From Anaerolineaceae bacterium (GTDB lineage Bacteria; Chloroflexota; Anaerolineae; Anaerolineales; Anaerolineaceae): a stretch of 64,000 bases of DNA. Made by a program: the position numbers and the translations under genes. The stretch is from positions 25,344 through 89,343 of the forward strand of contig JAFPZX010000169.1 in NCBI GenBank assembly GCA_017417055.1, read 5' to 3'. Under the pieces are notes generated by a model. It saw nothing but the letters and a program-made list of their open reading frames with translations, was not told the DNA's origin and did no database searches. This document shows positions 15,001 through 63,786 of the stretch, piece by piece (the stretch's first letter is position 1; the number at the start of each line of letters is the position of its first letter).

Positions 15001-15225
15001 CCGTGATTCTGTGAGGGCAGAATACTGCAGGGCTTCCTCACCATTCTTGGAACGAATTTCATCGACGACATAATGAATATCTGAAATAATAGCGATCTTC
15101 ACTTGTCTTACATCTGTACTTTCCTGTGCAGAAACTGTCATCCCGGTGGTCAGAACTGGCTGAACCATCATGATCAGGGCAAGCAGAAAATAAATAAAAT
15201 TCCTCATTCGTATCTTCATAGACAT
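12049..15225 (-). CDS. Secreted metallophosphoesterase - CnaB - LPGTG - sortase fusion
   Basis: A 1058-aa exported protein. After a signal peptide (about 1-33) comes a calcineurin-type phosphoesterase with the metal-binding blocks in order: ISDIHY, ACGDLLSNG, VNGNHD, MSHHAM and TGHTHASD. A long unassigned region follows to ~755, then a CnaB-like domain (~766-867: EWDDDSDKDGIRP, GNNWFGTFTGLDP, HTP end). The sequence RQLPGTGFSAS at ~893 looks like an LPxTG sorting motif. It leads straight into a sortase domain with His971 (AGHNHL), Cys1036 (LITCED) and Arg1048 (LNRRVIL) as the catalytic triad. There is no C-terminal membrane helix. The sortase module is nearly the same as that ending the protein at 39172-42120. 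GAGGAG lies just before the chosen ATG; a second ATG 6 bases on is equally possible. Confidence 0.88.
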   Translation of the reverse strand: MSMKIRMRNFIYFLLALIMMVQPVLTTGMTVSAQESTDVRQVKIAIISDIHYVVDEIRSKNGEEALQYSALTESRMEQEIDTILDVALEQTAKENPDVLLACGDLLSNGEYVGAEALAEKLKSAKEMKGMQNTGIYVVNGNHDINNSYSVDFSKDEYWNAQRVQPEDFKTIYDGLGYGANDSYNKSPSLRSVYTPPAGELAGGLSYVTEIAEGITLIVLDTGKYSNNTAEHYSLAQETSGRISDGLLTWAVEQAEIAKAKGNLVLAMSHHAMIPHDGAGADRHNVDWYMSSFVIDNSTEAANALADAGVTAILTGHTHASDIAEYTSPNGNKIYDIETAALCAYPTAFRMLTIRINQTGDKKTYSFSIDTKFLDKDFAGKNTSNWKIVAGENKGKDFAYYGGSMQAYGKEKSIYHPETIRAMIDYMLRSTLYPMVKEPESLENYLCKSLDPTAASLEDAIAKLLKTLPLDQPIDLTFEFEMLGSKSQISIKSINNGTAAKAGEDEQQPLKLGISTTFLSLGDLGEVTINLKLLPAYAAKLVRQIDEELKKPDWQTNNYGTQNVLLNDVINALNDAVLPSLTVPLDASDPDSTALNIWNDAAMAWAHGDEGLASAEDQDRRQNGNKLLQSDGLVSILKENAIKALLTLNNTSKYPGFAKILKTPFNETEDVISLSTGMQVVMGFLVPGFYYGNFSLSDLMQVLAWAGPDVLAARLPESMNTFLKDNLLAKVAGLQLAYATDTNIPNDSKYSFSITEDDPIPEPASEKYVWVRVEWDDDSDKDGIRPEFVKVNLLKGEEVIGEPFILNEGNNWFGTFTGLDPVIKYDVKVEMRDFINGNKETGYEISYQRVREDPLGDYYQIILTHTPNKSVEPGPRHIDFYRIGDLSWLYDRQLPGTGFSASRVTELRERPQGMVYGTTGLTLQIPELDVSEAIMTVPEVDGEYPVEWLGSAIGLLEQSSLPGKGVSVLAGHNHLNSTEAGPFLSLGSLESGDRVMVTDARNGMQMYRVYGNYKIASNAFASVAENVRDSALVLITCEDESADGGYLNRRVILAEPVGK

Positions 15226-36161: not shown

Positions 36162-39158
36162 ATGAAGAACAAACATCTTATGGTACTATTATTTCTTGTT
36201 TTGCTGTGCCTGACGCTGAGCGGACTTCCAGCCGCCGCTCAGGGCGAAAATTTGGGATATGAGGGGCCGATCATGAATGTTGATCTGGGGATCACATCTC
36301 TTTCCCTTTCGGTCGGGGAAAGCTACACTTTTCAAGTGACGTTTGAACCGGAAGACAACCCGTTCAAAACGCTAAAATGGTTTGTCACTGACGAAAGTGT
36401 GATCCAAATCGACCCGCTGACGGATACCGTCACAGCACTTGCGGACGGTGAAGCATGCATTTATGTAGAAACGCTGGACCAGGCAGCTCACGCGGTCTGC
36501 AATGTGACTGTGGGTGATTCCGCTTCCAAAGATGCTTCTGTGATGAAATCCGGTGATGAATATTTCAACCTCACGCAGAAGGAAATGCGCAAAATCACTT
36601 CCACAGCACTCAAACCCTACCTGGATTTTATTGCCGATTCCTCGCTGACCGCAAAAGGATTCGAGACCCTTACCGACCGCTCTTTTGACGTCCTGGCAGC
36701 GGTAAAGCCCGGCATGGAAGAAGCAGAAAGCCGGAGGGCCAGAGGTCTCGGGATGCAGTCCGATCCGCTTACCAGCCTGAATTCCATCACCCTGATCGGG
36801 TCAGTTGACCAAATTCTCAGCTTCGTGAAGGACAATAAAGATCTGCGTGAAGTCTTTGACCTGGGTGCACCGATGGCACCGGATCCCGACGCGGAAGTTG
36901 CCGGCGATGAAATTGAAAGCGGTGAAAAAGCCTTTGGTCTTCAGGGTAATGCAAACAACCTCTCCAATTTCACCTATGCTCAAAGACTGGGCTTGAACGG
37001 TTCCGGTCGAACGATTGCTGTGATTGACACCGGTCTGGATGTGACCCATGAACAGTTCACCAGACGAATCAAATACGAAGCTTGTTTTTCAAACAGCGGC
37101 AGCGGTTACTATACCGCCTGCAATAACAATGCAACCACACCCGGGTCGTCCCGTCCCATTCAGGGAAAAGTGCTCAAACTGAATTCCTTCAACCACGGAA
37201 CCCATGTGACAGGCATTGCCGCGGGCAGGGATGGTGTTGCCCCTAAGGCGAATATCGTTTTTATCGCAGCAGCCAGTGAAACTCGCTGGACCTGTAAAAG
37301 CAATGAAAAACATATGGCTTGTACAAGCGGCTCTGCACAGTGCTGTCAGGCTCAGTTTTATTCATCAAACCAGGCAAAAGCCTATGATTATCTGCTCAAA
37401 CTGGCTGCGCAGGGCGTAAAAATTGACGCGGTCAATATGAGCTACGGCTCTTTAAAATATACAGGTATTTGCGACAGTTCAGACAAATATCGCAAAGAAT
37501 ATTTTGACAAACTGGTCGCGGCCGATATGCTGCCGGTCGTTTCCGCAGGGAACGATTCCTATGACGACTCGGTCGGCAGGCCCGGCTGTGTTTCCAGCGC
37601 TTATACCGTAGCCGCTCTTGCGGATATGAATGTGCCGCGAATCGCTTCGTATTCCAATTTCAACAAACCCAATATTGATATCGCCGCGCCGGGAACGAAA
37701 ATCTGGTCCGCGGTACAAGTCAAAAACAATTGCACTCGGAACTGTTATGATTATAAGTCCGGTACATCCATGGCTGCCCCCATGGTCACAGGTTCCATTG
37801 CTATGGTCAGACAGCTGTACCCGAACGCTACCGCGGTGGAAGCCGGGAAGATGCTCAAAGATATGACCTCCAAAACTGTAAATAAACGGGTAAATTCTAA
37901 AAATGAATTCCATAACTCGTGGAATTTCAGTAAACCTGTGTTGAATTTGAATAATATTTTAAATACTTTCACCATCAGAGATAACAATGTCAGAGCTCAA
38001 AATCAACAGGTTTTGCTGACACTGGAACCGATTGGGTTGAACCGCTCTTTCACATACAAAATCAACGTGATCGATCTGGCGTCGAAAGCGAAAGTCCCCT
38101 GCCGCTTCCGTGTCACGACCCTTGATGGATTCAAGACGATTGAAATTGACGGAAAAGGTAATTTCAAGTCCGGGAAAATCTACCGTGTGGAAGTCAGCCG
38201 GTATATGAAAGGGATGAATAAACCCGCAAAGACAGTAAAATACTTTACTCCGTTCCTGGAGATGACAAGCCTTACTGCTGTTCCCCGTGGGCAGGGTGTT
38301 GATCTGAACCTTTATTCCGGATCTCAGGATAGACGTAATTTTGATGTGATTTACACTGTTTATGATGCATCCACAGGAGACTCTGTAAAGATTGCCGATG
38401 CGGGAAATCAGAGCCTGCCAAAGACAATTACCGGTTTGACGAACGGAAAAAAGTATTATGTGACGGCGACGCCCTTCCGGAATATCATGGTCAACAAAAA
38501 AACCATTCTGTTATTGGGAAAGGAAACAGCCCCGGTGTATTTTGTTCCGCTCAGCGCTCCGTTTAATTGCAGAGAAGCGGCATGGTCTGTTCCGCAGCTC
38601 TCCGGCCAGCATTATACAAAGATTTCCTGTGTTGCTGATCCGGCTGCAGATGGGATTGCGGTTTTTTACCGGAATTATGAAGACAACAACCAGGAGCTGA
38701 AACTGGGCTGCACATCCGAGAAAGGGAAACCTTTTGTCTGCCAGATTGACGGTGTCGACCGCGGCAATAAGTACCAGTTCATCATTTTGAAATATAAACA
38801 GGAGGACTCCGGCTGGCAGCGGTTCAGCGAATCAACTGTCATTAATCACAATTGCGGAAATGCGGACCTGAAACCGGAAAAGACGATGATTTATGTCAAA
38901 GAAAATGACGAGGCAGTTATTTCCGCTGCGGAATCATCAAAGGCTATAGGTATCACAGCTTACAGACAGGATGCTGACGGTAACTTTTTGGTGGATAAAC
39001 CGTTCTGTAATGAAAACAGACGCTCATGTTCCGGTCACTTGACAGGCCTTGAAGGAGGCGCAGCTGCATTCTATGTCACACGCTGGACACGAGATGAAAA
39101 CGGGAAACTGCTCTATTCCCCCGGTGTTTATGCCAATAACCTTTGGAACCGGGAATAA
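36162..39158 (+). CDS. Secreted subtilisin-family (S8) serine peptidase with Ig-like domain
   Basis: The 998-aa protein has a signal peptide (~1-26) and a Big_2-like Ig domain (~38-120: SLSLSVGESYTFQVTFEPE, then WFVTDESVI). A linker precedes the subtilase domain with catalytic Asp ~289 (AVIDTGLDVTHE), His ~345 (NHGTHVTGIAAG) and Ser ~536 (SGTSMAAPMVTGS). Several Cys within the peptidase domain (CNNN, CKSN, CTSGSAQCC) suggest disulfides. The C-terminal ~420 residues are beta-rich repeats without an anchor. It would act outside the cell, degrading host or competitor proteins or processing surface proteins. AAAGGAG precedes the ATG. The adhesin-sortase gene starts 13 bases after its stop, so the two are one operon, and a two-component system lies just upstream. 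Confidence 0.93.
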   Translation: MKNKHLMVLLFLVLLCLTLSGLPAAAQGENLGYEGPIMNVDLGITSLSLSVGESYTFQVTFEPEDNPFKTLKWFVTDESVIQIDPLTDTVTALADGEACIYVETLDQAAHAVCNVTVGDSASKDASVMKSGDEYFNLTQKEMRKITSTALKPYLDFIADSSLTAKGFETLTDRSFDVLAAVKPGMEEAESRRARGLGMQSDPLTSLNSITLIGSVDQILSFVKDNKDLREVFDLGAPMAPDPDAEVAGDEIESGEKAFGLQGNANNLSNFTYAQRLGLNGSGRTIAVIDTGLDVTHEQFTRRIKYEACFSNSGSGYYTACNNNATTPGSSRPIQGKVLKLNSFNHGTHVTGIAAGRDGVAPKANIVFIAAASETRWTCKSNEKHMACTSGSAQCCQAQFYSSNQAKAYDYLLKLAAQGVKIDAVNMSYGSLKYTGICDSSDKYRKEYFDKLVAADMLPVVSAGNDSYDDSVGRPGCVSSAYTVAALADMNVPRIASYSNFNKPNIDIAAPGTKIWSAVQVKNNCTRNCYDYKSGTSMAAPMVTGSIAMVRQLYPNATAVEAGKMLKDMTSKTVNKRVNSKNEFHNSWNFSKPVLNLNNILNTFTIRDNNVRAQNQQVLLTLEPIGLNRSFTYKINVIDLASKAKVPCRFRVTTLDGFKTIEIDGKGNFKSGKIYRVEVSRYMKGMNKPAKTVKYFTPFLEMTSLTAVPRGQGVDLNLYSGSQDRRNFDVIYTVYDASTGDSVKIADAGNQSLPKTITGLTNGKKYYVTATPFRNIMVNKKTILLLGKETAPVYFVPLSAPFNCREAAWSVPQLSGQHYTKISCVADPAADGIAVFYRNYEDNNQELKLGCTSEKGKPFVCQIDGVDRGNKYQFIILKYKQEDSGWQRFSESTVINHNCGNADLKPEKTMIYVKENDEAVISAAESSKAIGITAYRQDADGNFLVDKPFCNENRRSCSGHLTGLEGGAAAFYVTRWTRDENGKLLYSPGVYANNLWNRE

Positions 39159-39171
39159 TCTGAGGAGGAAA

Positions 39172-42120
39172 ATGATGAAACAACAGAAATTCATGAACAT
39201 AATGCTGGCTGTCTTCCTGACCGCTGCCCTGCTTTTCTCCTCGTCGTTTGCGCAGGAGGAAGCCGACATTGAGGAAGAACCCGCGGAAACCGGAACACTG
39301 GTTGTTAACGCGAACAGAATGGCCGGACGGGCGGAGTATATTTATGTGTTGGATGAAGAAGCCCCCGGTATTGATGTGAGCGCTGATGGCATCAGTGTTT
39401 CAGCAGATGTTGAAGGCGGGACTTATGCGGTTTCCGGCGGCGTGAATGTCGTGACATCAAATGGCGGCAATGCTGAATTGCATCTTGGCAGTGTCCGCGG
39501 CGGGTATGGATTCTGGTCCTATCTTTATACCGGTTCCGTTACCGCGGATATTGAAAGCATCACATCCGCTGGGGATACCGGCATTGATATCATGACAAAC
39601 GGTGCCGCCGCGTTGACACTGACTGCCGGAGATGTTTCATCTGCGTCTCACGGCGTGGCAGTTCAAACCGGCATTGAACCGGAAACCTATGATTATGATC
39701 GTGACTTTTTTCCCCCGGAAGAACCGGGCGATGAAGACTGGGACAGTGAAAAGTGGGATGATGTGGATGGAGTGCTGTCTGCAGAAAGTTCAAGCGGCTA
39801 TACAGCAGGAACAGCAACCGGTGGCGCGAATGTTACCATCACTGTCAGCGGCATTGACGCAGTTGATACCGCAGCCGACATCGAAGTCAATCAAAACGAT
39901 ACTGTCACGCTGACCGCTGAAGACTATATCCAGTCGGGTACAAACGGCGCTCTGGTCACACTGAACGGAGAAGGCGGTTCAGCCACGCTCACCGCTCCGC
40001 TCATCAGTGCTGATGAACGCGGTCTTGTGGTTTATGCCGCGGATGGTTCCGTGCAGGCCACAGTCGAAGAATATATCAGCGCTTCTTCTGCGGTTGAACT
40101 CACCAATGACGGTGCGGATGAAACCCTTTCTGCCGGATATCTGGAAGGGAACTCCGGACTGTATATCGAAGCCACTGACGGGACAACCACAGCGGAAACA
40201 AAAGATATCACTGCCGATAACTACGGCGTTTATGTCTGGACCTATACGCCGGATGTTTATAAAGAATATGATCCCAACAATACAGAGTCTCAACCTGAGA
40301 CCGGAACAGAACAGGAAAGCCAATCCGGCAGCCCGACCGTGAAAGTCACTGTAAATGGTGACATTACCGATTATATTGACTATCAGCCAGTGGATTACGT
40401 GGACATTATCGATCCGATCATTGGCGATGATGTGGTAAACCAGGTGTCAAAAGCCACAGCAGCCGAAGATGATGAAAACAGCACCGAGGCAAGCTCCACG
40501 GGAATCATCGTTGAGGCTGAAACCCAAAGCCAAATCAATATCATCGTGAACGGTGCCATTGAGATGTCTTATGGCAATGAGGCGGAAGCGCTGGATGGCT
40601 CCACGGTGAATGTTTCTGTATCGGACGATGTCACGACCGATTACGGCAACCGCATCGCTTCCTATGACGGCTCAAAAGTTACCTTTGATTTTGGCGGAGA
40701 TATCTATGCCGGCGGCAAAGCGCTGGATACTGATGTCGATTCCGGAACGCTGACTGTCACTGTCAAAGGTGAGAACGGCATCACCGTTCAGGACGGCAAT
40801 GCTGATGAGGAAACTGCCGGTATTTACGCCACATCTGCGGGGACCGGTGACACCAACATCTCCATTGAAAATGGTGGGGTCGACGTCAAGTCAGAGAACG
40901 GTAACGGCACATACGGCATCAGCCTGGCTAACTACGGCGGGATCATCAATGTCAAGTCCGCAAGCGACGTCACGGCAGAAGGTGCTGATTCCACCGGTCT
41001 TGAAATCATAAACGATCCGGAATCCGAGGAAGTATCTGTTCAAACCAATGTGGAAATCAACGGTTCTGTGAGCGGCAGCGGCAGCGGACTGGATTTTTAT
41101 TCCGTCGAGGATGCTGACAACGCAAAAGCTGCTGTTCTGGTGACGGATACTATTTCAGGCGGTGTTGTCCTTGAAAATGCCGCATCGGATAATCTGGATT
41201 TGGCAGTCTGGAAAATTGACACCTCTGCAACCGGAGGAAATGCCGCGGTAACACCGGACAATCAGCCTTCGGAATTTGCATCTGAAATTAAATATCTCAT
41301 TAAAATCAATCCGAAAGACGCGGATAAAATTCAGGCTGTTGATGAGAACGGCAATCCGCTGCCCACCGTAAACGGTCCGGTTACCGGAACCGCTTACCCT
41401 TACGCTAAGGAAGGGGAGAAGGTATATCTGAAAGGGATCAACGGTTATGAACTGACCGAAGCTTACAACGGAACGGAAACGCAAACCCCGTTGGCTTTGG
41501 ATGACGGACGTTTTTCCTGGCAGATCAGGCCGGGCGGAGCCGTCTGGTTCTCTGTAACGAAAAATCCTGCCCCCATTCCGCCCACTCCTTATCAGGATCT
41601 TGAATGGCTCTGCGGTCTTGAACTGCCGCATACCGGTTTTTCCGCTTCCCGCATCACGCAGCTGGCAGCCCGTCCGCAGGGATTGGCATATCGTAATACC
41701 GGACTGACTCTGCAGATTCCGGGACTGGATGTTGCCGAACAGATCGTCACCGTTCCCGAATCTGAAGATGGCAGCTACCCGGTGGAATGGCTGGGCAGCG
41801 AGATTGGTTTACTGGAACAGAGCGCTCTGCCGGGCAAAGGCGTCACTGTGCTCACAGGACACAACCATCTGAACACCACGGAAGCCGGTCCCTTCCTCTT
41901 CCTCTCCCGGTTGGAAGAAGGAGATCACATTATGGTCAATGACCGCTTCAACCGCATGCAAATGTACCGCGTTTACAGCAATGTCAAAATCTCATCTGAT
42001 AGTTTTGAGACTGTTGCCGACAATGTGCGTGCAGATGCGCTGGTGCTCATCACCTGTGAGGACGAATCCGTTGATGGCGGCTACCTCAACCGCCGCGTGA
42101 TCTTGGCCGAACCAATGTAA
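39172..42120 (+). CDS. Secreted acidic beta-repeat protein - LPHTG - sortase fusion
   Basis: AGGAGG precedes the twin ATG at 39172/39175 (the second has the better spacing), giving ~982 aa with a signal peptide (MNIMLAVFLTAALLFSSSFAQ). Residues ~40-780 are acidic, Gly/Ser/Thr-rich and nearly Cys-free, with recurring strands such as VSADVEGGTYAVSGGV and TVTVKGENGITVQDGNA, typical of a beta-helix adhesin. After a proline linker come LELPHTGFSAS (LPxTG motif, ~818-822) and a sortase domain with His897 (TGHNHL), Cys962 (LITCED) and Arg974 (LNRRVIL). This end closely matches that of the 12049-15225 protein, so the LPxTG-sortase unit is a reusable module. It has no C-terminal membrane anchor. The subtilase in the same operon might process it. 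Confidence 0.88.
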   Translation: MMKQQKFMNIMLAVFLTAALLFSSSFAQEEADIEEEPAETGTLVVNANRMAGRAEYIYVLDEEAPGIDVSADGISVSADVEGGTYAVSGGVNVVTSNGGNAELHLGSVRGGYGFWSYLYTGSVTADIESITSAGDTGIDIMTNGAAALTLTAGDVSSASHGVAVQTGIEPETYDYDRDFFPPEEPGDEDWDSEKWDDVDGVLSAESSSGYTAGTATGGANVTITVSGIDAVDTAADIEVNQNDTVTLTAEDYIQSGTNGALVTLNGEGGSATLTAPLISADERGLVVYAADGSVQATVEEYISASSAVELTNDGADETLSAGYLEGNSGLYIEATDGTTTAETKDITADNYGVYVWTYTPDVYKEYDPNNTESQPETGTEQESQSGSPTVKVTVNGDITDYIDYQPVDYVDIIDPIIGDDVVNQVSKATAAEDDENSTEASSTGIIVEAETQSQINIIVNGAIEMSYGNEAEALDGSTVNVSVSDDVTTDYGNRIASYDGSKVTFDFGGDIYAGGKALDTDVDSGTLTVTVKGENGITVQDGNADEETAGIYATSAGTGDTNISIENGGVDVKSENGNGTYGISLANYGGIINVKSASDVTAEGADSTGLEIINDPESEEVSVQTNVEINGSVSGSGSGLDFYSVEDADNAKAAVLVTDTISGGVVLENAASDNLDLAVWKIDTSATGGNAAVTPDNQPSEFASEIKYLIKINPKDADKIQAVDENGNPLPTVNGPVTGTAYPYAKEGEKVYLKGINGYELTEAYNGTETQTPLALDDGRFSWQIRPGGAVWFSVTKNPAPIPPTPYQDLEWLCGLELPHTGFSASRITQLAARPQGLAYRNTGLTLQIPGLDVAEQIVTVPESEDGSYPVEWLGSEIGLLEQSALPGKGVTVLTGHNHLNTTEAGPFLFLSRLEEGDHIMVNDRFNRMQMYRVYSNVKISSDSFETVADNVRADALVLITCEDESVDGGYLNRRVILAEPM

Positions 42121-52384: not shown

Positions 52385-54190
52385 ATGATCAAACGAACAT
52401 CTGTAACTCTTTTTATATTACTTGCGATTTTCTTCCTCATCAATGCCGCCGGTTTTGCTCAGGAAGCGCCGGTCAGCAATCTTCCGCAGATTGACATGAG
52501 TGCCTGGCAGTACAATGCTGAGGATGATGTCTATTATCAGCTCGGAATCCCCTATTGTGAAACACCGGCTGACGAGAATTACGAAAACCTTGCTGTATTT
52601 GTGCCCGGTCCCTATTTCAAAGGCGTCAATAATGGTGATGACACATGGACCTGCACTGTGAATCCGGACGCGGTTGTTGGTGGTTTCACGCCTGCTTCCG
52701 CACCGATCGTATTTCCGGTGGAAACACCGGGGTATTCTGCCATGGCTCCCCTTACTGCGTACAGCAGTCTGACCGCTTTCACCGGAGAGGGTTTCATCTA
52801 TGTTCATGCCGGCTGCCGGGGCCGGAATCATGGTGCACCCGCCGGTGTTACGGATTTGAAGGCCGCAGTTCGCTATATCCGTTATAATGCCGGTCTTCTT
52901 CCCGGGAATCCGGAGGCTGTTTTTACCTTTGGTATGAGCGGCGGCGGAGCACAGTCCGCGCTGATGGGTGCAACCGGTGACAGTGAACTTTATGAACCCT
53001 ATCTAAACGCTATCGGTGCGGTACAGGGTGTCAGTGATGCGGTTTACGGCTCCATGTGCTGGTGCCCGATCACCAATCTGGATCTGGCTGATGAGTCCTA
53101 CGAATGGATGATGGGCGTTACCCGCAGCGGCCTTACAGATGAACAGCAGGCGATTTCCGATAACCTGGCAGCTGCCTTTGCCGCGCATCTCAACAGTGCC
53201 GGGCTCAAAGATCCCCTTGGCAATGTGCTGACACTTGAAGCAGGTGATGACGGTATTTATCAGGGTGGATCCTATTATGACTACCTGGTCAGTGAGATCA
53301 ACCGTTCCCTGAATCACTTCCTGGTTGATACTGCCTTTCCCTATGATGCCTCTGCATCTCATCAAGGCGGCGGTCGTGGGATGATGGGCGGTGGACGTCC
53401 GGAAGGCGGTTTTGACGGTGGAATGGGCCGGGATGATGGGCAGCGCCCTGATTTTGCTGCGGGAGAGGGTTTCCCGGGACTTCCTGAAAACGCTGAGGGA
53501 GGTGTACCAGCCGGTGAGGTCGATTACACAGCGGTTGATGACATTACCCGCAATGAGACCACTGCAAAACTTTCCCTTACTGGTGTTTATGAGACACCGG
53601 AAGACTATATAAATGCCCTGAATGCCAATGGGGAATGGGTCGAATATGACGCGGATACAAACAGAGCAAAAGTCACCAGCATTGCAAGCTTTGTGAAGGC
53701 ATTCAAGACAGCTTCCAAGAATCTCGGCGCATTTGACCAGCTCGACCGCGGACAGGGCGAAAACACCCTCTTCGGTTACGGTGATGGGAGTGGCGCTCAT
53801 TTTGATCCGATTCTCGGAGAGATCCTCACCGCACTCGGGAGTGAATACGCCGCGGATTTCGCAGAAGATCTTGTCCGGACCGATGCTTTGGGCAATACGG
53901 TGGATGTCCGGCTCAATATGTATAACCCGATGTATTACCTGATGGAATCGGAAGACGGATTCGGCAGCGCTTCGGTCGCGAAGCATTGGCGCATCCGCAC
54001 CGGTATTGCGCAGAGCGATACATCCCTTTCCACGGAAGTTGACCTTTCCCTCGCGCTGATGAATTACGAAGGGGTTGAATCGATCGACTTTGAAACCATC
54101 TGGGCTGCCGGCCATACCAAGGCTGAACGCAGCGGCAGCAGCGATGAAAACTTTATTGAGTGGGTAAAATCCGTCACGCCCGTTGAGTGA
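52385..54190 (+). CDS. Secreted subtype-B tannase-like esterase
   Basis: The 601-aa protein has a signal peptide (~1-25). It then has the alpha/beta-hydrolase core of tannase/feruloyl esterase-like enzymes: YQLGIPYCETP, GFIYVHAGCRGRNH (oxyanion region), nucleophile Ser185 in FGMSGGGAQSA, and acid/base residues IAQSDTS (Asp545) and AAGHTKAE (His577). Such enzymes hydrolyse galloyl or feruloyl esters of plant polyphenols. A Gly/Met/Arg-rich low-complexity insert (~330-375: GGGRGMMGGGRPEGG) resembles the tail of the beta-helix protein at 7224-9278. AAAGGA precedes the ATG by 8 bases. Plant-derived substrates would fit a gut or rumen habitat, but the substrate is not proven. Confidence 0.85.
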   Translation: MIKRTSVTLFILLAIFFLINAAGFAQEAPVSNLPQIDMSAWQYNAEDDVYYQLGIPYCETPADENYENLAVFVPGPYFKGVNNGDDTWTCTVNPDAVVGGFTPASAPIVFPVETPGYSAMAPLTAYSSLTAFTGEGFIYVHAGCRGRNHGAPAGVTDLKAAVRYIRYNAGLLPGNPEAVFTFGMSGGGAQSALMGATGDSELYEPYLNAIGAVQGVSDAVYGSMCWCPITNLDLADESYEWMMGVTRSGLTDEQQAISDNLAAAFAAHLNSAGLKDPLGNVLTLEAGDDGIYQGGSYYDYLVSEINRSLNHFLVDTAFPYDASASHQGGGRGMMGGGRPEGGFDGGMGRDDGQRPDFAAGEGFPGLPENAEGGVPAGEVDYTAVDDITRNETTAKLSLTGVYETPEDYINALNANGEWVEYDADTNRAKVTSIASFVKAFKTASKNLGAFDQLDRGQGENTLFGYGDGSGAHFDPILGEILTALGSEYAADFAEDLVRTDALGNTVDVRLNMYNPMYYLMESEDGFGSASVAKHWRIRTGIAQSDTSLSTEVDLSLALMNYEGVESIDFETIWAAGHTKAERSGSSDENFIEWVKSVTPVE

Positions 54191-55251: not shown

Positions 55252-55382
55252 TGCCACACAAGTGAATATTTTTGCGTACTTTAATGACGTGTATTGGGTA
55301 TGTGTTTTTGTCTCTTGGCAAAAACGCAGGCTCGAATATTTCGCATACTCTTAATACACGTCGAAATATTACTTGTGTGGCA
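55252..55382 (+). ncRNA. Three-way-junction leader RNA upstream of the cohesin/dockerin operon
   Basis: Outer arms TGCCACACAAGTGAATATTT (55252-55271) and AAATATTACTTGTGTGGCA (55364-55382) pair with one bulge. A second helix pairs GACGTGTATTGGGTATG (55286-55302) with CATACTCTTAATACACGTC (55344-55362). Inside are the hairpins GTTTTTG/CAAAAAC (55304-55325) and CGAA-TAT-TTCG (55333-55343). A TATACT box at 55239-55244 lies just upstream and an intrinsic terminator just downstream (55405-55439), followed by the operon start at 55459. This is the architecture of a transcription-attenuating riboswitch or other cis-regulatory RNA; I recognise no known class. A palindromic mobile element is the alternative. 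Confidence 0.55.
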
Positions 55383-55404
55383 GCAATGGAGCTTAGCGTT
55401 TTGC

Positions 55405-55439
55405 GTGCGCAGGCTTCGTTGTCTGCGCACTTTTTATTT
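55405..55439 (+). terminator. Intrinsic terminator (attenuator) 20 nt before the start codon
   Basis: GTGCGCAG - GCTTCGTTGT - CTGCGCAC followed by TTTTTATTT. Its place between the structured leader and the ATG at 55459 means it would stop transcription before the operon unless antiterminated. Confidence 0.8.
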
Positions 55440-55458
55440 AAGCCGGGGGATAAGAAAT

Positions 55459-58400
55459 ATGAAACCAAACCTGCATCGCCGTTCCTTTTTTCTTCTGTTG
55501 ATTTGTTTTATGTTTTTTGGAGTTTTTACTCAAAACGCATTTGCACAGTGGTATTGGCCTGTTCCAGAAGCCCAACCTCAACAAAACTATTGGAATACTA
55601 AATGGGGGGTGTATTTAAAATTATCATATTATGAAGGATGGCATTATGGAATAGATATTGTAAAAGGGTATGGAGCTGTAATTGTTGCAGCTGCAGATGG
55701 TACAGTTGTAAGGTCTTTTAGTGGTGATCAGTATAATTCATCGGGTAAATGTAATTATTGCGGTGGTGGTAATGTTGTTGTCGTAAAACATGTTATTAAC
55801 GGTCAAACCCTATACTCCCATTATGCTCATTTGAAAGATCGCAATCCTAATCTCAGTGTAGGAGATCCTGTTGTTGGAGGAAAAACGGTTATTGGGTGGA
55901 TGGGTAACACAGGTAGTGGTGCTGGTGGTACGACACATCTTCATTTTGCTATCAAAACAGTAACCCATGGAGGTTGTCAACCTAATGATTGTACAACAGA
56001 TTGTTGTATAAATACTAATCCTTCTTGGGATGACCCAAATGGAATTACATATATGGATAGTACTTACACACCCAACTGTGGCAACGGAATCAGCGGAAAT
56101 GACCAATGGGGAGTTCATATTGATATTTGCGGGGCTCCTTACACTACCTACGCAAAGAAACCCGGCGGCAGCGGGGCATGGGCGCCAAATGGAGCGAGCA
56201 CGAACTGGTATGCGGCTGCGCGCGTGAACGAGCTTACAGGCGTAGATGTCCCCATCATGGATGGTCAGACCTGGATCAATAGTGCTGAATCGTATGGCTT
56301 CACTGTTTCCAAGGAACCTAATGCAAATCCGAACTGGGTCCATGGACATGAACTCCCAAGTAAAAGACTGGCTATCTGGAAGGATCATATTCGTGTTATT
56401 GAAGGTGTAAATACGCAAACACAAATGATCTTGTTCAGCAACGGTGATGGAAATTCCAAATATGCCGCAAATGGCTATTGTGGAATGGAAGAGAGGTCTT
56501 TTACTGACTTTGAGAGTGACGGAAGATGGTTTGGTGATTTCCTTGGATATGTTTTTCTTGACAAGCCCAATCCTAAAGGAGATTTGAATGAAGCAAGAGG
56601 AACTGATGATGGGCGAATCCATATATATGGTTGGGCTTATGATCCGAGTTCTCCTGATACTGATTTGGATCTTCGTATCCAAGTCAAAACTCCAAGGAAT
56701 GATTTTAGAGAATATATAGAAAAGGTTAATAATTATCAAAGAGTTGATTTAGATTATACAAAAAAAGGTTTTCTGCTTGATATTCCGACAGACTTAAGAG
56801 GTGAAAACATTGCCTTAACAGTCGAGGCAGAGGGAACAGGAACTGGTAAATCATTGATTCTTGGAGACGGTATAAAATACATTACTATTACAGCTGATTA
56901 TCCAAATAAGATAACACTTAATCAGGATTCATTAGATCTTCGTTATGGAAGTTCCGGAGGTTCTTACGCTTATACACTGGGAAATCTATATGTTTCATCA
57001 TATCGGCCAAACGATGCAATCAACAAAAAAATAACATGGACGAGTAGCGACACCAGTGTTGCTGTAGTTTCCTCCGATGGTGAGGTAACTCCAAAAAGTT
57101 CTGGTACAGCGACGATCACAGCTGCAGTGGTTGGGAGAACTTCTGTTAAAGCTGAATGTCATGTAACTGTATCTCCATGGCCTGAAGTTCTTCCTGCGAG
57201 TATAGAACTGGATAAAACCAATGAATCTGTTGCAGTTGGCAGTCAGTTTACCTTGAGTGCAACACTCAGTCCTTCTAATGCAGATAACAAAAAGATTACT
57301 TGGAGCAGTTCAGACACCTCCGTTGCGACAGTATCCAATGGTGTGGTAACAGCTGTTGGGGAAGGCAGTGCGGTTATTACGGCAGCTGCAAATGCAAATT
57401 CTTCTGTGAAAGCTGTTTGTAATGTTACAGTTTATCAGAATGCTGATCCGAGCTGCGATTGGGTTGAAAAAAGTTTCCTTCCTCCCAACGTAAATCCCGA
57501 TGAATGGGAAATTGAGGTGAAAAATCACTACGTACGAACAGGTTCCACATCTCCGGGAAACGGTTGGACGCAGTCCGATTCCTCGACACGATATGTGGAG
57601 TCCGATGAACCTTATGTAACATATATGAATTTAGGCGCAGATACAAATACCAGAAAATTCATCAAAAAAGTTTGGTATCACTGGTGCGGTCACCCGCAGC
57701 ATAGAGATTGGGTTGAATTGGAACAACAGACGAATTATCCGCATAAGCATGAACTGGATATGGATGAAACTTCGCTTGAGGATAGAGCCCGGTATGAGGA
57801 CAGCAATGTAACCGGGGTTTACCAGCATGAATTATGGTGGAAAACCGGGCAGTATGCAGGTAACTTAGCTCATTGCGGTAATTATGGAGCACGATGGTAT
57901 GAAGGCTGGAAATATCAGAATTATACCGCTGTCACAGAAAATACCTGGGTAAGAGACAGTGAATGGCTGAGTTTAGATCAGCTCGATTCAAATGCGACAT
58001 CCGTAAGTTATCGCTTCCGTTTGAAGAACTGCGATGCGGTTTCTTATACCGTGACATTCAAGGTAGCAAACGGTTCATGGGATGATGGCACTACCGCGGA
58101 TAAAACGGTCACGCTGGATGGCATTGCATCCGACACACTGACACTTTCAGAAGAGCAGATCCCGACCGCGGGAACAAAGCCGAATACAAATTATAAAACC
58201 GGAAAATGGGGCGTAACTCCTTCTGTGAACACGCAGATTACGGGGGATACGACCTACACCTATACCTATGCAAAAAAGGATTCGCTTTCCAGCACTGTGA
58301 CTTTCAAAGTAGTCAATGGGGCCTGGGACGATGAAACTACGGCTGACAAGACTGTGACCTTAAGCGGTTATGAGGGCGATGAACTGAAGATGTCTGCTGG

Positions 58401-59340
58401 GGATATCCCTGCGGTGGGTACAAAACCGGCGGAGAACTACAGTGAGGGAAGCTGGAACACAACACCGAGTACCGATACCGTCATCACCGGCAACACGACT
58501 TATACCTACACTTACAAGGCAAAGAGCGAAGTAACACATACCGTGACTTTCAAGGTGGTAAATGGTTCCTGGGATGACGGCACCACTGCGGATCAAACCG
58601 TGACGCTGACCGGATATGAGGGTGATTCCCTGAAGCTGACGCAAAGCCAGATTCCGGCTGTGGGCAGTAAACCGAATGAAACTTATAAAATCGGCACCTG
58701 GGATACTACGCCTGATATCACTACCGCTATCACATCGAACATAACCTATACCTATACCTACGCAGTATATGAAAATGACAATCGTGTAAAGCTGATAGTC
58801 TCCTCTGAAGAGGCTCGACCCGGCGAAGAAGTGACGGTTAGCTTGAATATTAAGAATAATCCGGGGATTGCGGGAATGATCCTAACAATAAGTTATGATG
58901 AAAACAGGCTCATATATAAAGGATTTGAAAATTCAGGCATATCTGGATGGTATGGAACTGGTGTGGATTTGATATGGGAAGATATAAGTCAAAACTATGA
59001 TGTTAATGGTGAAATCATCAAACTGAAATTTGCTGTTCTTCAAAATGCGAAAAAAGGAGATGCTCTTGTTACAGTAATTTGTAACAAGATTTCAGACAAT
59101 AAGGAACTAAAGTATATTCCTGTAATCGAATCCGGTAAAGTAGATGTAATTATTCCTGGAGATTTAAATGGTGATGGTGATGTTGACATTTTTGATGTCA
59201 TACGATTGAGAAGATATCTCGTGAAAGAACCTGTTGAACTCTTTGCGAATCCGGATCTGAACAGAGATGGAGATGTTGATATATTCGATGTTATACGATT
59301 ACGAAGATTCCTTGTAAAAGAACCTGTTGTAATTTATTAG
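55459..59340 (+). CDS. Secreted M23 peptidase with degenerate CHAP, Ig-like repeats, cohesin-like domain and dockerin
   Basis: ATG 55459 gives 1293 aa starting with a signal peptide; the frame to 55294 only crosses the leader RNA. The M23 metallopeptidase domain (~45-170) has His62/Asp66 (WHYGID), His121 (SHYAH) and H-L-H 160-162. Next is a CHAP-like region (~240-345: STNWYAAARVNEL, WKDHIRVIEGV) in which the usual catalytic Cys position is Thr. A GWAYD-type beta module (~370-475) and two Big_2 Ig domains (~488-695) follow. Then comes a Trp-rich domain (~700-905), three ~80-aa repeats (VTFKV.NG.WDD...TYTYTY), and a cohesin-like domain (~1110-1230: VKLIVSSEEARPGEEVTV). It ends in a complete type I-like dockerin with two Ca loops (DLNGDGDVDIFDV; DLNRDGDVDIFDV). 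It probably hydrolyses peptidoglycan while docked in a surface assembly with the next gene's product. Confidence 0.85.
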   Translation: MKPNLHRRSFFLLLICFMFFGVFTQNAFAQWYWPVPEAQPQQNYWNTKWGVYLKLSYYEGWHYGIDIVKGYGAVIVAAADGTVVRSFSGDQYNSSGKCNYCGGGNVVVVKHVINGQTLYSHYAHLKDRNPNLSVGDPVVGGKTVIGWMGNTGSGAGGTTHLHFAIKTVTHGGCQPNDCTTDCCINTNPSWDDPNGITYMDSTYTPNCGNGISGNDQWGVHIDICGAPYTTYAKKPGGSGAWAPNGASTNWYAAARVNELTGVDVPIMDGQTWINSAESYGFTVSKEPNANPNWVHGHELPSKRLAIWKDHIRVIEGVNTQTQMILFSNGDGNSKYAANGYCGMEERSFTDFESDGRWFGDFLGYVFLDKPNPKGDLNEARGTDDGRIHIYGWAYDPSSPDTDLDLRIQVKTPRNDFREYIEKVNNYQRVDLDYTKKGFLLDIPTDLRGENIALTVEAEGTGTGKSLILGDGIKYITITADYPNKITLNQDSLDLRYGSSGGSYAYTLGNLYVSSYRPNDAINKKITWTSSDTSVAVVSSDGEVTPKSSGTATITAAVVGRTSVKAECHVTVSPWPEVLPASIELDKTNESVAVGSQFTLSATLSPSNADNKKITWSSSDTSVATVSNGVVTAVGEGSAVITAAANANSSVKAVCNVTVYQNADPSCDWVEKSFLPPNVNPDEWEIEVKNHYVRTGSTSPGNGWTQSDSSTRYVESDEPYVTYMNLGADTNTRKFIKKVWYHWCGHPQHRDWVELEQQTNYPHKHELDMDETSLEDRARYEDSNVTGVYQHELWWKTGQYAGNLAHCGNYGARWYEGWKYQNYTAVTENTWVRDSEWLSLDQLDSNATSVSYRFRLKNCDAVSYTVTFKVANGSWDDGTTADKTVTLDGIASDTLTLSEEQIPTAGTKPNTNYKTGKWGVTPSVNTQITGDTTYTYTYAKKDSLSSTVTFKVVNGAWDDETTADKTVTLSGYEGDELKMSAGDIPAVGTKPAENYSEGSWNTTPSTDTVITGNTTYTYTYKAKSEVTHTVTFKVVNGSWDDGTTADQTVTLTGYEGDSLKLTQSQIPAVGSKPNETYKIGTWDTTPDITTAITSNITYTYTYAVYENDNRVKLIVSSEEARPGEEVTVSLNIKNNPGIAGMILTISYDENRLIYKGFENSGISGWYGTGVDLIWEDISQNYDVNGEIIKLKFAVLQNAKKGDALVTVICNKISDNKELKYIPVIESGKVDVIIPGDLNGDGDVDIFDVIRLRRYLVKEPVELFANPDLNRDGDVDIFDVIRLRRFLVKEPVVIY

Positions 59341-59363
59341 AAACGCTGTTGTGAGAGGTTTAT

Positions 59364-62300
59364 ATGAAGAAATTGAGTTTATATCTGATCTTGATATTAT
59401 TATCGATTATAAATTTTAGTTCAGCTATTGCTGCAGATGGTGCAATATCAGTTTCTGAAGTTTCCGCTGGTCCCGGGGATAACAACATTGAACTTGATGT
59501 TGTAATTGATAATGAAATAGCAATTAATGGACTTCAATTTGAAATCAATTATGCTCATGATACAACAGAATTATCTTATCAAGGAAATCAAAGTATTCTC
59601 AATGGATCCTGGAATATTAACGAATATGAAATAGGGAAGATTAGCATTGCATGGAATAGCAGCGACAATCAAAATATCAATGTGGTTGGATCAATTCTGA
59701 AATTGAAATTTAATGTTTCAGATGTTGTTGCTGAGAATAAATTGGTTGTACAAATATCTTCTGTAAAAGGATCTTCTTATCCAGAAGAAAAAGTTAATTT
59801 TTCTATTACCAATGGAGGTATAAATATACGTACAATTAATGCCAGTGCAGCGAATGTCACCAGCAGTTACACCGGGCAGCCACAAAGCATTGACGTTAGC
59901 GTGACGAAACCGGAAAGCGGTTATACCATTATGTACGGTACTACAGAAGGCACTTATAACCTGCCTGAAAGTCAAAAACCGTCGATAACCAATGTGAGCG
60001 AAAGTCCACTGACCGTTTACTTTCAGGTTACAGCACCCGGATACGTCCCATATACCGGCTCCGCAACCCGCGAGATCACAAAAGCTGAAATTACAGCCAT
60101 CAGCGGCTTGAAAGCTCTGACAAAAGAATATGACGGAACCACAACCGCCGCGCTTGATCCGGACGCCGTTCCTGTTTTTGAAGGCATGGCAGATGGTGAT
60201 GCCCTGAGTGTGAACGTTGATGCTGTTGCTTTTGAAGATAAAAATGTTGGTACTGACAAAAAAGTGACCTTCAGCGGCCTTACTCTTGGCGGTACAAGTG
60301 TTGGAAATTATATTCTCACACCGGATTACACAAGCGCGGAAGGAACAGGCAGCATTACGAAAAAACCTGTCACGGTCAATGGATTGACTGTTGAGGAAAA
60401 AGTGTATGACGGGACAACAAACGCTTCTGTAGTCACAACAGGTGTGACCTTTGAAGGCAAAGTTGGCGAAGACAAGCTCTCTATTATCGCCAATGCCGCC
60501 TTTGCGGATGCGGATGCCGGAACAGATAAGGCTGTCACTTTCAGTGGGTTTGAACTTGGTGGTGACGATGCCGGAAACTATTCTCTCAGCTCAACAACAG
60601 CCGAGGGAACCGGTACCATCATTCCTCGTGCCATCACCATTACTGCAAATGGGCAGACTGCCCCTCTGAATGGCAATATCAGCCAGGATGTGAGTCAGGT
60701 GACAGTCACCGGTGACAACAATCCTGTCGTGGCTCCCGGTCAATATCTAAGCTCGATCACACTCACACCGAGCAGCACTGCGGCTGCCACTACATCCGGT
60801 ACGATCACTCCCTCTGACGCGGTGATTATCACCGATGTGGAAACCACCGCGAAAAATTATGCCATCACCTATGTGAATGGTACACTCACCGTAAATAAAG
60901 CGGCAATTGAGCCAACAATTACAATAAACGGATGGGTATACGGAGAAACAGCCAATACACCGGTAGTTTCAGGAAATTTGGGCGGCGGAACCGAGACGAT
61001 CACTTATAAACCGCAGAATGAGCCTGAGGACAGCTATATCGGGACCGTCCCGACTGAACCGGGTGATTACACAGTCAGAGTTGTGATCGACGAGACAGCG
61101 AATTATCTTAGTGGAATGGCCACAGCAGACTTCACAATATCAAGGGCGCCAATCAGTGCGACGGTTACGTTCAAGGTAGAAAACGGTCAGTGGAATGATC
61201 AAACGGATGCTAACAAAGAGATAACGCTGAGTGGGTATGAAGGCGATACGCTGAAACTGGCTGCGTCTGATATTCCGGCAGTGGGAGATTATCCGGATTC
61301 CGGCTATCAGGCAGGTTCCTGGGATATCGCACCGAGCACGGAAACCGCGGTAACGGAGAATATGACCTACACGTATACCTATGCCGAGATCCCGACGAAA
61401 ACGCCGACACCAACGCCAACGGAAACAGCGACATTCACACCGACAGCTACGGAGACGCCGACGGAAACGGCGACGTTCACACCAACTGCCACAGTAACTC
61501 CGACTGAGACGCCGACGGAAACACCGACATTCACGCCGACTGCAACGGAGACGCCGACAGAAACACCGACGTTCACGCCAACAGCTACGGAAACGCCGAC
61601 GTTCACACCAACTGCCACAGAAACTCCGACTGAGACGCCTACGGAAACACTGACGTTTACACCGACAGCCACGGAGACGCCGACGGAAACACTGACGTTT
61701 ACACCGACAGCCACGGAGACGCCGACAGAGACACCGACGTTCACACCGACAGCCACGGAGACGCCGACGGAAACACCGACGTTCACGCCGACTGCCACGG
61801 AAACAGCGACGTTCACGCCAACTGCCACGGCTACACCAACGGAAACAGCGACATTCACGCCGACTGCTACAGAAACGCCGACGGAAACAGCGATGTTTAC
61901 ACCGACCGCTACGGCAACGCCGACGGAAACAGCGACGTTCACGCCGACAGCCACGGAAACTGCGACGTTCACACCGACAGCTACGGCGACACCGACGGAA
62001 ACTGCAACGTTCACGCCGACTGCTACGTCGACACCGACAGAAACATCGACATTCACGCCGACCGCTACGGCAACGCCGACAGAAACAGCGACATTCACGC
62101 CAACAGCTACGGCGACGCCGACGGAAACAGCGACGTTCACGCCAACCGCTACAGAAACGCCGACGGAAACACCGACGTTCACGCCAACTGCCACGGCTAC
62201 ACCAACGGAAACAGCGACATTCACGCCAACCGCTACGTCAACACCGACGGAAACACCGACGTTCACGCCGACAGCTACGGAAACGCCGACAGAAACACCG

Positions 62301-63674
62301 ACGTTCACACCAACTGCTACGGAAACACCAACGGAAACAGCGACGTTTACACCGACCGCTACGTCGACACCGACAGAAACATCGACATTCACGCCGACCG
62401 CTACCGCAACGCCGACGGAAACAGCGACGTTTACACCGACCGCTACGTCGACACCGACAGAAACAGCGACGTTCACGCCAACCGCAACGGCAACGCCGAC
62501 GGAAACAGCTACATTCACGCCAACCGCTACGGCAACGCCGACGGAAACAGCTACGTTCACGCCGACCGCTACGGCGACGCCAACGGAAACGCCGACAATT
62601 ACTCCGACCGCTACCGCGACCCCGACAGAAACGCAGATCCCGACATATACAGTTACCTGGAAAAATTACGATGGAACTGTGTTGGCCACAGATCAGGTCC
62701 CGCTCGGTTCGATACCGGTATACAAGGGAGAAACACCGACCCGGGAGGATCCGGAAGGACGCGTGGTCTATACCTTCGCCGGCTGGGAACCGGAAGTGAC
62801 GGAAGTAAGCGGGCCTGTAGAATATACCGCGGTCTTTACCTCGGCAGACAAAATCTATCAGGTCAAAGTGACCTCCAATGAATACGGTACTGCCTATGCT
62901 ATTCCGACAGAAGGACCTGCCGGCACGGAAGTAACGCTGTTCGCCACACCAAACGACAACTGTCAGTTTGTGAAATGGCAGGTGGTCAAAGGCGATGTGA
63001 CTGTGAATGACAATAAATTCGTCATTATGCATTCGGATGTTGAGGTCCAGGCGGTCTTTGAAGTTATTGAGAATCCATTTGATATGAAAGTAACCATCAA
63101 CAACATCATGGGCACCGGTACAAAAGGAGCGCCAAAGGATATCAGCAAGACGCACCTGGATCCAACACTCATCCTGAAGAGCGATGTACATGAGACGAGC
63201 GGCCGATTTAATGGTGGTTTCACGGTTCATCCGGGAGAATACCAGATCATGTCAATAGTCACGTTTGCCAACGAGGTTCCGGATATTTCCAGTGCCTTGT
63301 ACGCAGTTCTCGCGGAAGGACTGCCGAAGATGGTTTCCAGCGCGAGAAAAGAGGATAACAAGTACCGTCTGACGTATAATGCCTGGATCAATAACGAAGG
63401 CGGGATCACTATCAACCTGATCTGGACCGACAGAACCTGGAACCCGGATAATGAAGTTTATGTGTTCCCGCTGCCGGAAGATGAGATCGGTGCATATAAG
63501 ATGGATCCGTGGGGCAATAAAGAGTACCTGATATTCCACACTTACGATATTTGCATGCGCTGGCTGGGTGATGACGGGCTTTGCAGTGGATACGAGCGCT
63601 GTTTTCACAAGGAACTGCCGTATATTTATGATGGAAATAAGATCAGATACGGTTACGATTGGGGTCAGCCGTAA
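59364..63674 (+). CDS. Giant secreted protein: cohesin-like, YDG/MBG modules, Thr/Pro linker, InlB-type repeats
   Basis: The 1436-aa protein starts 24 bases after the dockerin gene with GAGAGG before the ATG. After a signal peptide (~1-24) a cohesin-like beta-sandwich follows (~26-150: [39 protein letters not shown]). Next are two YDG modules ([24 protein letters not shown]), MBG-like repeats, and one [10 protein letters not shown]...TYTYTY repeat shared with the previous protein. A ~418-aa linker of [12 protein letters not shown] units runs over ~675-1092. InlB B-repeat-like domains follow ([38 protein letters not shown]), then a ~195-residue C-terminal domain with several Trp and Cys ([18 protein letters not shown]). 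It has no sorting signal or membrane anchor. As a long stalk with a cohesin it is a natural receptor for the neighbouring dockerin. Confidence 0.85.
61388..62644 (+). repeat. Thr/Pro-encoding minisatellite (42-bp unit, with 30-bp variants)
   Basis: About 30 tandem units encoding FTPTATxTPTETxT (42 bp), sometimes shortened to [10 protein letters not shown] (30 bp). Synonymous changes between ACG, ACA and ACC codons and between GAA and GAG show the units are old enough to diverge, while the T/P/E/A/F/S alphabet is strictly kept. The opposite strand is also free of stops over most of the tract, a by-product of the repeat. Confidence 0.92.
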
Positions 63675-63756: not shown

Positions 63757-63786
63757 GGGACAGGCCTGCAGGCCTGTCCCCTTTTT
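63757..63786 (+). terminator. Perfect palindrome with T-run after the cohesin operon
   Basis: GGGACAGGCCTG / CAGGCCTGTCCC (12-bp arms, no loop; in RNA the centre would open) followed by CTTTTTTG. It is also a member of the family C repeats. It is the probable end of the two-gene operon. The last 210 bases of the window beyond it show no gene I can support. Confidence 0.75.

Follow-up and report, generated by a model that had tools for sequence, protein, structure and literature searches.

The locus described here raises the question of what a dockerin and two cohesins are doing in a two-gene operon built around a peptidoglycan hydrolase. The operon occupies positions 55459 to 63674 of the window, i.e., the whole stretch of 64,000 nucleotides that was analysed, taken from contig JAFPZX010000169.1 of an Anaerolineaceae draft genome (GCA_017417055.1); gene 1 encodes an M23-cohesin-dockerin protein and gene 2 a partner protein that begins with a cohesin. 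The answer that we favour, with a probability of roughly 55%, is a tethered peptidoglycan hydrolase, in which the M23 enzyme would be docked on a gene 2 protein kept at the cell surface. Domains, gene order, conservation and the base-pairing of an upstream leader can be read directly, and from these we infer binding, anchoring, activity, substrate and regulation.

Gene 1 runs from an ATG at 55459 to a stop at 59340 and gene 2 from an ATG at 59364 to a stop at 63674, both on the plus strand and separated by a gap of 23 bases, with GAGAGG 5' of the gene 2 ATG. The gene 1 product (1293 aa) is probably secreted, as judged from its hydrophobic N-terminal stretch, and no strongly hydrophobic 19-residue stretch was found in its last 260 residues. 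The N-terminus is followed by a Peptidase_M23 domain, a CHAP-like domain, two Big_2 domains, three repeats, a cohesin and a dockerin. The Peptidase_M23 domain (55642-55959) scores 48.5 bits in Pfam against a cut-off of 28.7 and carries the HxxxD and HxH motifs, which are intact in three M23 proteins; by score and motifs it has the sequence character of an M23 peptidoglycan endopeptidase. The CHAP-like domain (approximately 56086-56568) had no CHAP match of its own in Pfam and was recognized by BLASTP against the CHAP-dockerin protein of another locus of the same genome, C125 (28% identity, E 9e-16, in a 218-column alignment that extends into the next module). A Thr is aligned to the C125 Cys, leaving no catalytic Cys, while the His column is retained; the domain is degenerate and, because of this replacement, probably inactive. 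Two Ig-like Big_2 domains (approximately 56926-57438) and three VTFKV...TYTYTY repeats of 73 aa each (58051-58761) lead to the cohesin (58786-59121), which scores 29.8 bits in the whole protein and 37.3 when the last 200 residues are scanned alone (cut-off 24.1). About a dozen residues further on, in the same chain, the C-terminal dockerin (59155-59313) consists of two near-identical repeats (..DGDVDIFDVIRLRR..), both calcium-loop repeats being aligned, and scores 36.9 bits in the whole protein and 40.3 alone (cut-off 22.9). In the PDB this dockerin matches mostly dockerins of cellulosomal enzymes, and the gene 1 cohesin gives two weak cohesin matches only (E 0.03-0.04).

The gene 2 product (1436 aa, probably secreted, with a counterpart in the congener G042) comprises, in order, a cohesin, YDG domains, one repeat, a PT-rich linker, an InlB-like repeat and a C-terminal domain. 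Its cohesin (59442-59828) is absent from the listing of the whole-protein Pfam scan and required a scan of the N-terminal segment, where the first 172 residues alone reach 32.9 bits (E 8.9e-8, cut-off 24.1); a six-frame search of the genome gave 33.2. Two YDG domains (approximately 60081-60623), a single copy of the VTFKV...TYTYTY repeat (61164-61382) and the PT-rich linker (61416-62633) precede the InlB-like repeat, which at 17.6 bits stays under its cut-off of 23.6. The C-terminal domain (63078-63629) had no Pfam or NCBIfam match, and it is our candidate for surface retention. Used as a query, this end of gene 2 gave 34 matches, 29 of which reach the domain and the rest only the InlB-like part; the 29, seven of them containing a stop codon, are spread over five of the 14 genus genomes (six in the source genome, nine in G042, six in G045, three in G046 and five in G047). 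A C-x-GY-[ED]-RCFH motif is present in eight of ten fetched copies, a set that includes gene 2 itself, and in each of the eight the distance from it to the end of the chain is 11-21 residues. Since the domain thus recurs at chain ends, a role in keeping the protein at the cell surface is suggested. A terminator-like hairpin lies 3' of gene 2 (63757-63780, plus strand), and shortly downstream the window ends together with the contig.

On all these points the original prediction holds: its operon coordinates are right, the complete two-repeat dockerin preceded by a cohesin-like domain in gene 1 and the cohesin-like start of gene 2 are both backed by profile searches, the VTFKV...TYTYTY repeat is common to both genes, and no glycoside hydrolase domain was listed in the Pfam scan of either protein. 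Neither the CHAP-like domain of gene 1 nor the leader described below was part of that prediction.

The rest of the source genome (a draft of 4.41 Mb, 85% complete with 5.5% contamination) helps in reading the operon. A search for further dockerin proteins found four dockerins in total, together with six cohesin matches, in three loci: the window operon, C89 and C125. C89 encodes an LRR protein with a C-terminal cohesin-dockerin, followed by a protein beginning with a cohesin, the two cohesins being 48% identical. No scaffoldin with several cohesins is present in the window, and C125 holds a two-cohesin protein: here a CHAP-like-Big_2-dockerin protein and an M23-Big_2-dockerin protein accompany a scaffold composed of two cohesins, three Big_2 domains, an LPRTGF motif and a terminal sortase domain. 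With 91% identity between the cohesins of the scaffold and near-identity of the two dockerins, C125 fits a two-socket scaffold with two interchangeable enzymes, and it may represent a simpler version of the window system, in which both enzymes would sit on a scaffold ending in its own motif and sortase. Such a locus lends support to the peptidoglycan-acting surface complex first proposed for the window. An LPxTG motif was found in none of six dockerin proteins examined, and two cohesin proteins (C125 and G047) have one before a sortase domain. The genome also encodes four transpeptidase matches, so the bacterium probably makes a wall of its own.

Among the relatives, dockerin matches occur in 18 and cohesin matches in 22 of 147 family genomes. 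In a scan of genome contigs for named relatives, gene 1 gave three loci, the best segments corresponding to query residues 509-672, the Big_2 region. A 17-base Chloroflexi 16S probe site (GNSB-941) has exact matches in four of the 14 genus genomes (six sites), with none in the source genome or in a backward control, and the three of four fetched loci that were examined (L085, L086 and L088) contain an SSU rRNA. Together with other features this suggests the family Anaerolineaceae and, as a lead, a Flexilinea-like genus. In the genome of G042, of the same genus (87% complete), a search at E 0.001 gave a single dockerin and two cohesins, all of them within one gene pair: an M23-cohesin-dockerin gene, then a cohesin-YDG-MBG gene with a C-terminal domain resembling that of gene 2. 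Gene 2 and its G042 counterpart are 45% identical in a 682-column alignment, an identity of 49% was obtained between the cohesin of gene 1 and that of its counterpart, and of eight cohesins compared the closest to that of gene 2 is its G042 counterpart (32%). The order of a cohesin-dockerin gene followed by a cohesin-first gene was read in four loci, the window, C89, G042 and G068 (where the partner cohesin scored 23.4 bits in one scan and 26.5 in another, against the cut-off of 24.1), and G067 fits as a fifth from coordinates only. G047 is arranged differently (L033, 8438-14045), where a gene for a cohesin-LPGTGF-sortase protein of 355 aa comes first and one for a dockerin protein that combines LRR and a caspase-like domain comes next; this genome has one dockerin, and the partner cohesin, at 17.9 bits, is under the curated cut-off and was not found by the family scan. 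Within 3 kb downstream of both the C125 and the G047 loci lie two genes with similar beginnings, which we take to be DeoD-like and Mrp-like. The cargo of six more dockerin proteins from the family comprises fn3, InlB-like, papain-like, phosphatase or FGE-sulfatase domains, or hardly anything with a name; in two of them sub-domains appear whose names derive from polysaccharide enzymes (a PL4 fn3 domain under its cut-off, and a Rha78A-like Ig domain that overlies fn3 repeats). Other genera of the family have several cohesin matches in a row (G025 C6, G026 C8, G031 C338, G081 C73, G099 C9, G114 C17), as separate and mostly short open frames, often of about 300-350 aa; a similar run in G024 (L039) includes two such proteins with hydrophobic tails at the end.

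Which cohesin the gene 1 dockerin would bind can be approached from these comparisons. Since G042 keeps the gene pair with no other dockerin or cohesin at the threshold used, docking of gene 1 on gene 2, as the original prediction had it, appears to be the simplest reading. The loop columns of dockerins decide specificity, and the residue pair before the last Asp of the loops is IF in the window, AL in C89, GK in C125 and VK in G042, alike in both repeats, and differs between the repeats of the G047 dockerin (EQ and AQ). Each locus having a loop residue pair of its own, private dockerin-cohesin pairs are suggested. In the reading that we favour, the gene 1 protein would be secreted and its C-terminal dockerin would plug into the gene 2 cohesin, while the long gene 2 protein would be kept at the cell surface by its C-terminal domain, so that a stalk would hold the M23 enzyme outside the cell. 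A second socket would be offered by the gene 1 cohesin, for a second copy of gene 1 or for a dockerin from either of the other loci. It is 27% identical to that of gene 2 and 44% and 39% identical to the two C89 cohesins, and its partner may therefore be some other dockerin and not that of a second gene 1 copy. Cutting of foreign or dead cell wall, or remodelling of the own wall, would be the most likely use.

Several observations weigh against this reading. Dockerins are patchy in the genus (3 of 14 genomes), and the M23 parts of the window and G042 proteins are only 30% identical, which means that conservation of the enzyme part is loose. The two window cohesins share just the 27% identity given above, compared with 49% between that of gene 1 and its G042 counterpart, and a single dockerin might therefore not suit the two of them. 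With E values up to 1 allowed, no PDB chain matched the gene 2 cohesin. An LPxTG-sortase end is absent from gene 2 itself (a VPYTGS string at residue 228 is internal), and its anchoring is deduced from the recurrence of the C-terminal domain at chain ends. The CHAP assignment in C125 is weak, the scores of 22.3-24.7 bits falling short of the cut-off of 26 (the higher value is that of the first 174 residues alone), and further partners could be missing from a draft genome of the stated completeness and contamination.

The sortase end of the C125 scaffold recurs in the window itself. A plus-strand open reading frame (ORF) at 39049-42120 ends in LPHTGF and a sortase domain, i.e., the same module, and a minus-strand gene at 12049-15225 encodes a metallophosphatase-Cna_B-LPGTGF-sortase protein; the C125 scaffold and the two window proteins score 67.0, 68.4 and 67.7 bits with Pfam Sortase (cut-off 26.6). 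The source genome has 26 sortase matches, 23 of them above the cut-off. Twenty of the 26 regions were fetched and 18 match the module, with xPxTG[FI] placed 74-80 residues before the His (in one case as WPRTGI); of the other two, one matches weakly and has IPDTG further upstream, and one is a sortase that does not match the module. An [LI]PxTGF motif was present in 20 of 20 regions from 17 other genomes, a count biased by the search model, which itself includes the motif, and the module model matched in 72 of the 147 family genomes. His, Cys and Arg are retained in four aligned copies, and all three residues are present in the C125 scaffold and the two window proteins. None of the NCBIfam sortase classes C to F and GN reached its cut-off (the best, class F, gave 41.2 against 166), the general NCBIfam sortase model stayed at 35.7, under its cut-off of 39.35, and a scan of viral contigs with the module gave no relative. 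A single-sequence AlphaFold model of the LPHTGF-sortase end of the 39049-42120 ORF had a mean pLDDT of 35.7 and was not used. A chain that carries both LPxTG and sortase perhaps anchors itself; alternatively, the motif may cover the active site as a lid or be recognized by another sortase as its signal.

Upstream of gene 1, at 55253-55441 on the plus strand, a structured leader was recognized from DNA copies and covariation, with a closing stem P1, a covarying stem P2, a hairpin P3 and a hairpin resembling an intrinsic terminator (55405-55430) that overlaps a predicted alternative pairing. Eleven DNA copies were found in three of the 14 genus genomes, among them copies 5' of the G042 M23-cohesin-dockerin gene and of the C89 LRR-cohesin-dockerin gene, while C125 is not among the matches. 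Of the 147 family genomes, an RNA model matched these three, at 12 places in all, and gave no match in the remaining 144; model R1 lost stem P2, and the L066 copy was omitted from alignments A3 and A4, as the search pattern found no P1 arm. In ten aligned copies P1, P2, P3 and the terminator are paired in 94.4% of cells, two-sided change occurs in 16 of 44 pairs against 9.2 in shuffles (0 of 500 shuffles reach 16), and pairing falls to 51% or less when the partners are slid, with the structure derived from the same sequences used for counting and nine of 11 P1 pairs invariant. The single-sequence fold has a z of -8.6, and no Rfam match was obtained. RNAalifold favours the pairing that excludes the terminator and the single-sequence fold favours the terminator, which is the layout of an attenuator, and the leader probably gates expression of the window operon. 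A same-strand open frame of at least 110 aa starts within 150 bases downstream of 10 of 11 copies, compared with six of 11 on the divergent side; at a minimum of 250 aa the counts are nine and three of 11. By these counts the bias is moderate. Starts resembling signal peptides were noted in several of the downstream proteins. The leader may instead be a mobile palindromic repeat, in view of weak opposite-strand matches of the RNA model at six of 12 places and of its patchy presence in three of 147 genomes; an L068 ORF that resembled a REP-associated transposase by eye gave no Pfam match.

A wider reading can be built on these elements, which we advance only tentatively: the lineage would have its own version of the cellulosome for cutting peptidoglycan, with M23 and CHAP-like enzymes docked on cohesin proteins by their dockerins; those cohesin proteins found in C125 and G047 would anchor themselves through their own LPxTG and sortase, and the leader RNA, a new one, would switch part of the set together. 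Each such chain would cut itself between the Thr and Gly of LPxTG and join the wall, acting as a one-shot, self-sorting protein, a device of which the largest genomes would have some twenty copies or more.

A rather unlikely alternative, also raised in the original prediction, is that the gene 1 protein polymerises, its dockerin binding the cohesin of another gene 1 copy to give a fibre of M23 enzymes capped by gene 2. Cohesin and dockerin do occur together on a single chain in the proteins of the window, C89 and G042, the 48% identity of the C89 cohesins means that one dockerin could fit both, and a C-terminal Coh1-Doc1 unit is described for a ScaO-like scaffoldin (PMC11557425). The low identity of the two window cohesins speaks against such a fibre, as does the short spacer between cohesin and dockerin, which could allow or even force binding in cis.

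It is likewise doubtful that the operon encodes an adhesion device, where cohesins and dockerins would join surface proteins into a coat and M23 would serve wall binding or insertion rather than degradation. The varied dockerin cargo (LRR in C89, LRR with a caspase-like domain in G047, and fn3, papain-like peptidase, phosphatase and FGE-sulfatase elsewhere) and the CHAP-like domain of gene 1, with no Cys in the alignment, would suit a coat, whereas the M23 motifs are retained and M23 or CHAP-like domains occur in two of the three loci of the genome.

With 31.5 bits against a cut-off of 26.8, the gene just upstream of the operon (52385-54190) belongs by its match to BD-FAE, which takes its name from a feruloyl esterase. 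Descent of the genes from a plant-wall-degrading complex is very improbable: the gene 1 dockerin resembles those of cellulosomal enzymes and a BD-FAE gene is adjacent, though no dockerin match of the genome lies there, and against these stand the conservation of the gene pair in G042 and the lack of any glycoside hydrolase catalytic domain in the four dockerin proteins of the 85% complete genome and in the eight scanned from other genomes. By what the draft genome shows, the system is not a cellulosome.

If the tethered-hydrolase reading is true, cohesin-dockerin assembly would here serve bacterial cell walls and not plant walls, in small operons whose partners can be tested pairwise; the LPxTG-plus-sortase module raises the question whether a natural surface protein can be its own sortase substrate, and the leader would be a further testable switch. 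Among the matches listed from a licence-limited literature, no report was found of a natural chain with both LPxTG and sortase, of a cohesin fused to a sortase, or of a cohesin-dockerin system devoted to peptidoglycan alone. As far as the literature searched goes, small operons with peptidoglycan-type dockerin enzymes, the cohesin-LPxTG-sortase chain and the shared leader are new.

In earlier work, an Anaerolineae study lists no cohesin or dockerin in six genomes (PMC4877987). Cohesin and dockerin proteins of ANME archaea place such domains in organisms without cellulosomes; archaea with these domains are reported to lack large multi-cohesin scaffoldins (PMC9012536), while C125 sets a two-cohesin protein beside two dockerin enzymes. 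The Limousia mucinolysome is also a cellulosome-like complex for a substrate other than the plant wall, proposed however for mucin degradation (PMC12997984), whereas the present loci are small and carry peptidoglycan-type enzymes. The ScaO-like protein shares the cohesin beside a C-terminal dockerin in a multidomain chain (PMC11557425); here the cohesin-dockerin proteins carry M23 or LRR. Engineered sortase self-cleavage tags resemble the LPxTG-sortase chain in joining sortase and cleavage site, and they cleave themselves in vitro, but they are artificial with the sortase N-terminal of the target (PMC2901362), while the chain described here is natural, has the sortase at its C-terminus and recurs in many proteins. 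Closest in function is RflaF_05439 of Ruminococcus flavefaciens, a dockerin protein with two NlpC/P60 domains that docks on ScaE, a single-cohesin protein anchored by sortase (docking cited as unpublished; PMC3573020, PMC2930009), tested members of the NlpC/P60 family being called gamma-glutamyl D,L-endopeptidases. Both cases combine a dockerin-borne peptidoglycan-type enzyme with a cohesin protein, docking and anchoring being predicted in ours. Theirs is part of an extensive cellulosome, for which 222 dockerin sequences are given, and is anchored by an LPXTG protein processed by sortase, while here the enzymes are of M23 and CHAP-like type, no glycoside hydrolase was found on the dockerin proteins, and in C125 LPxTG and sortase form one chain.

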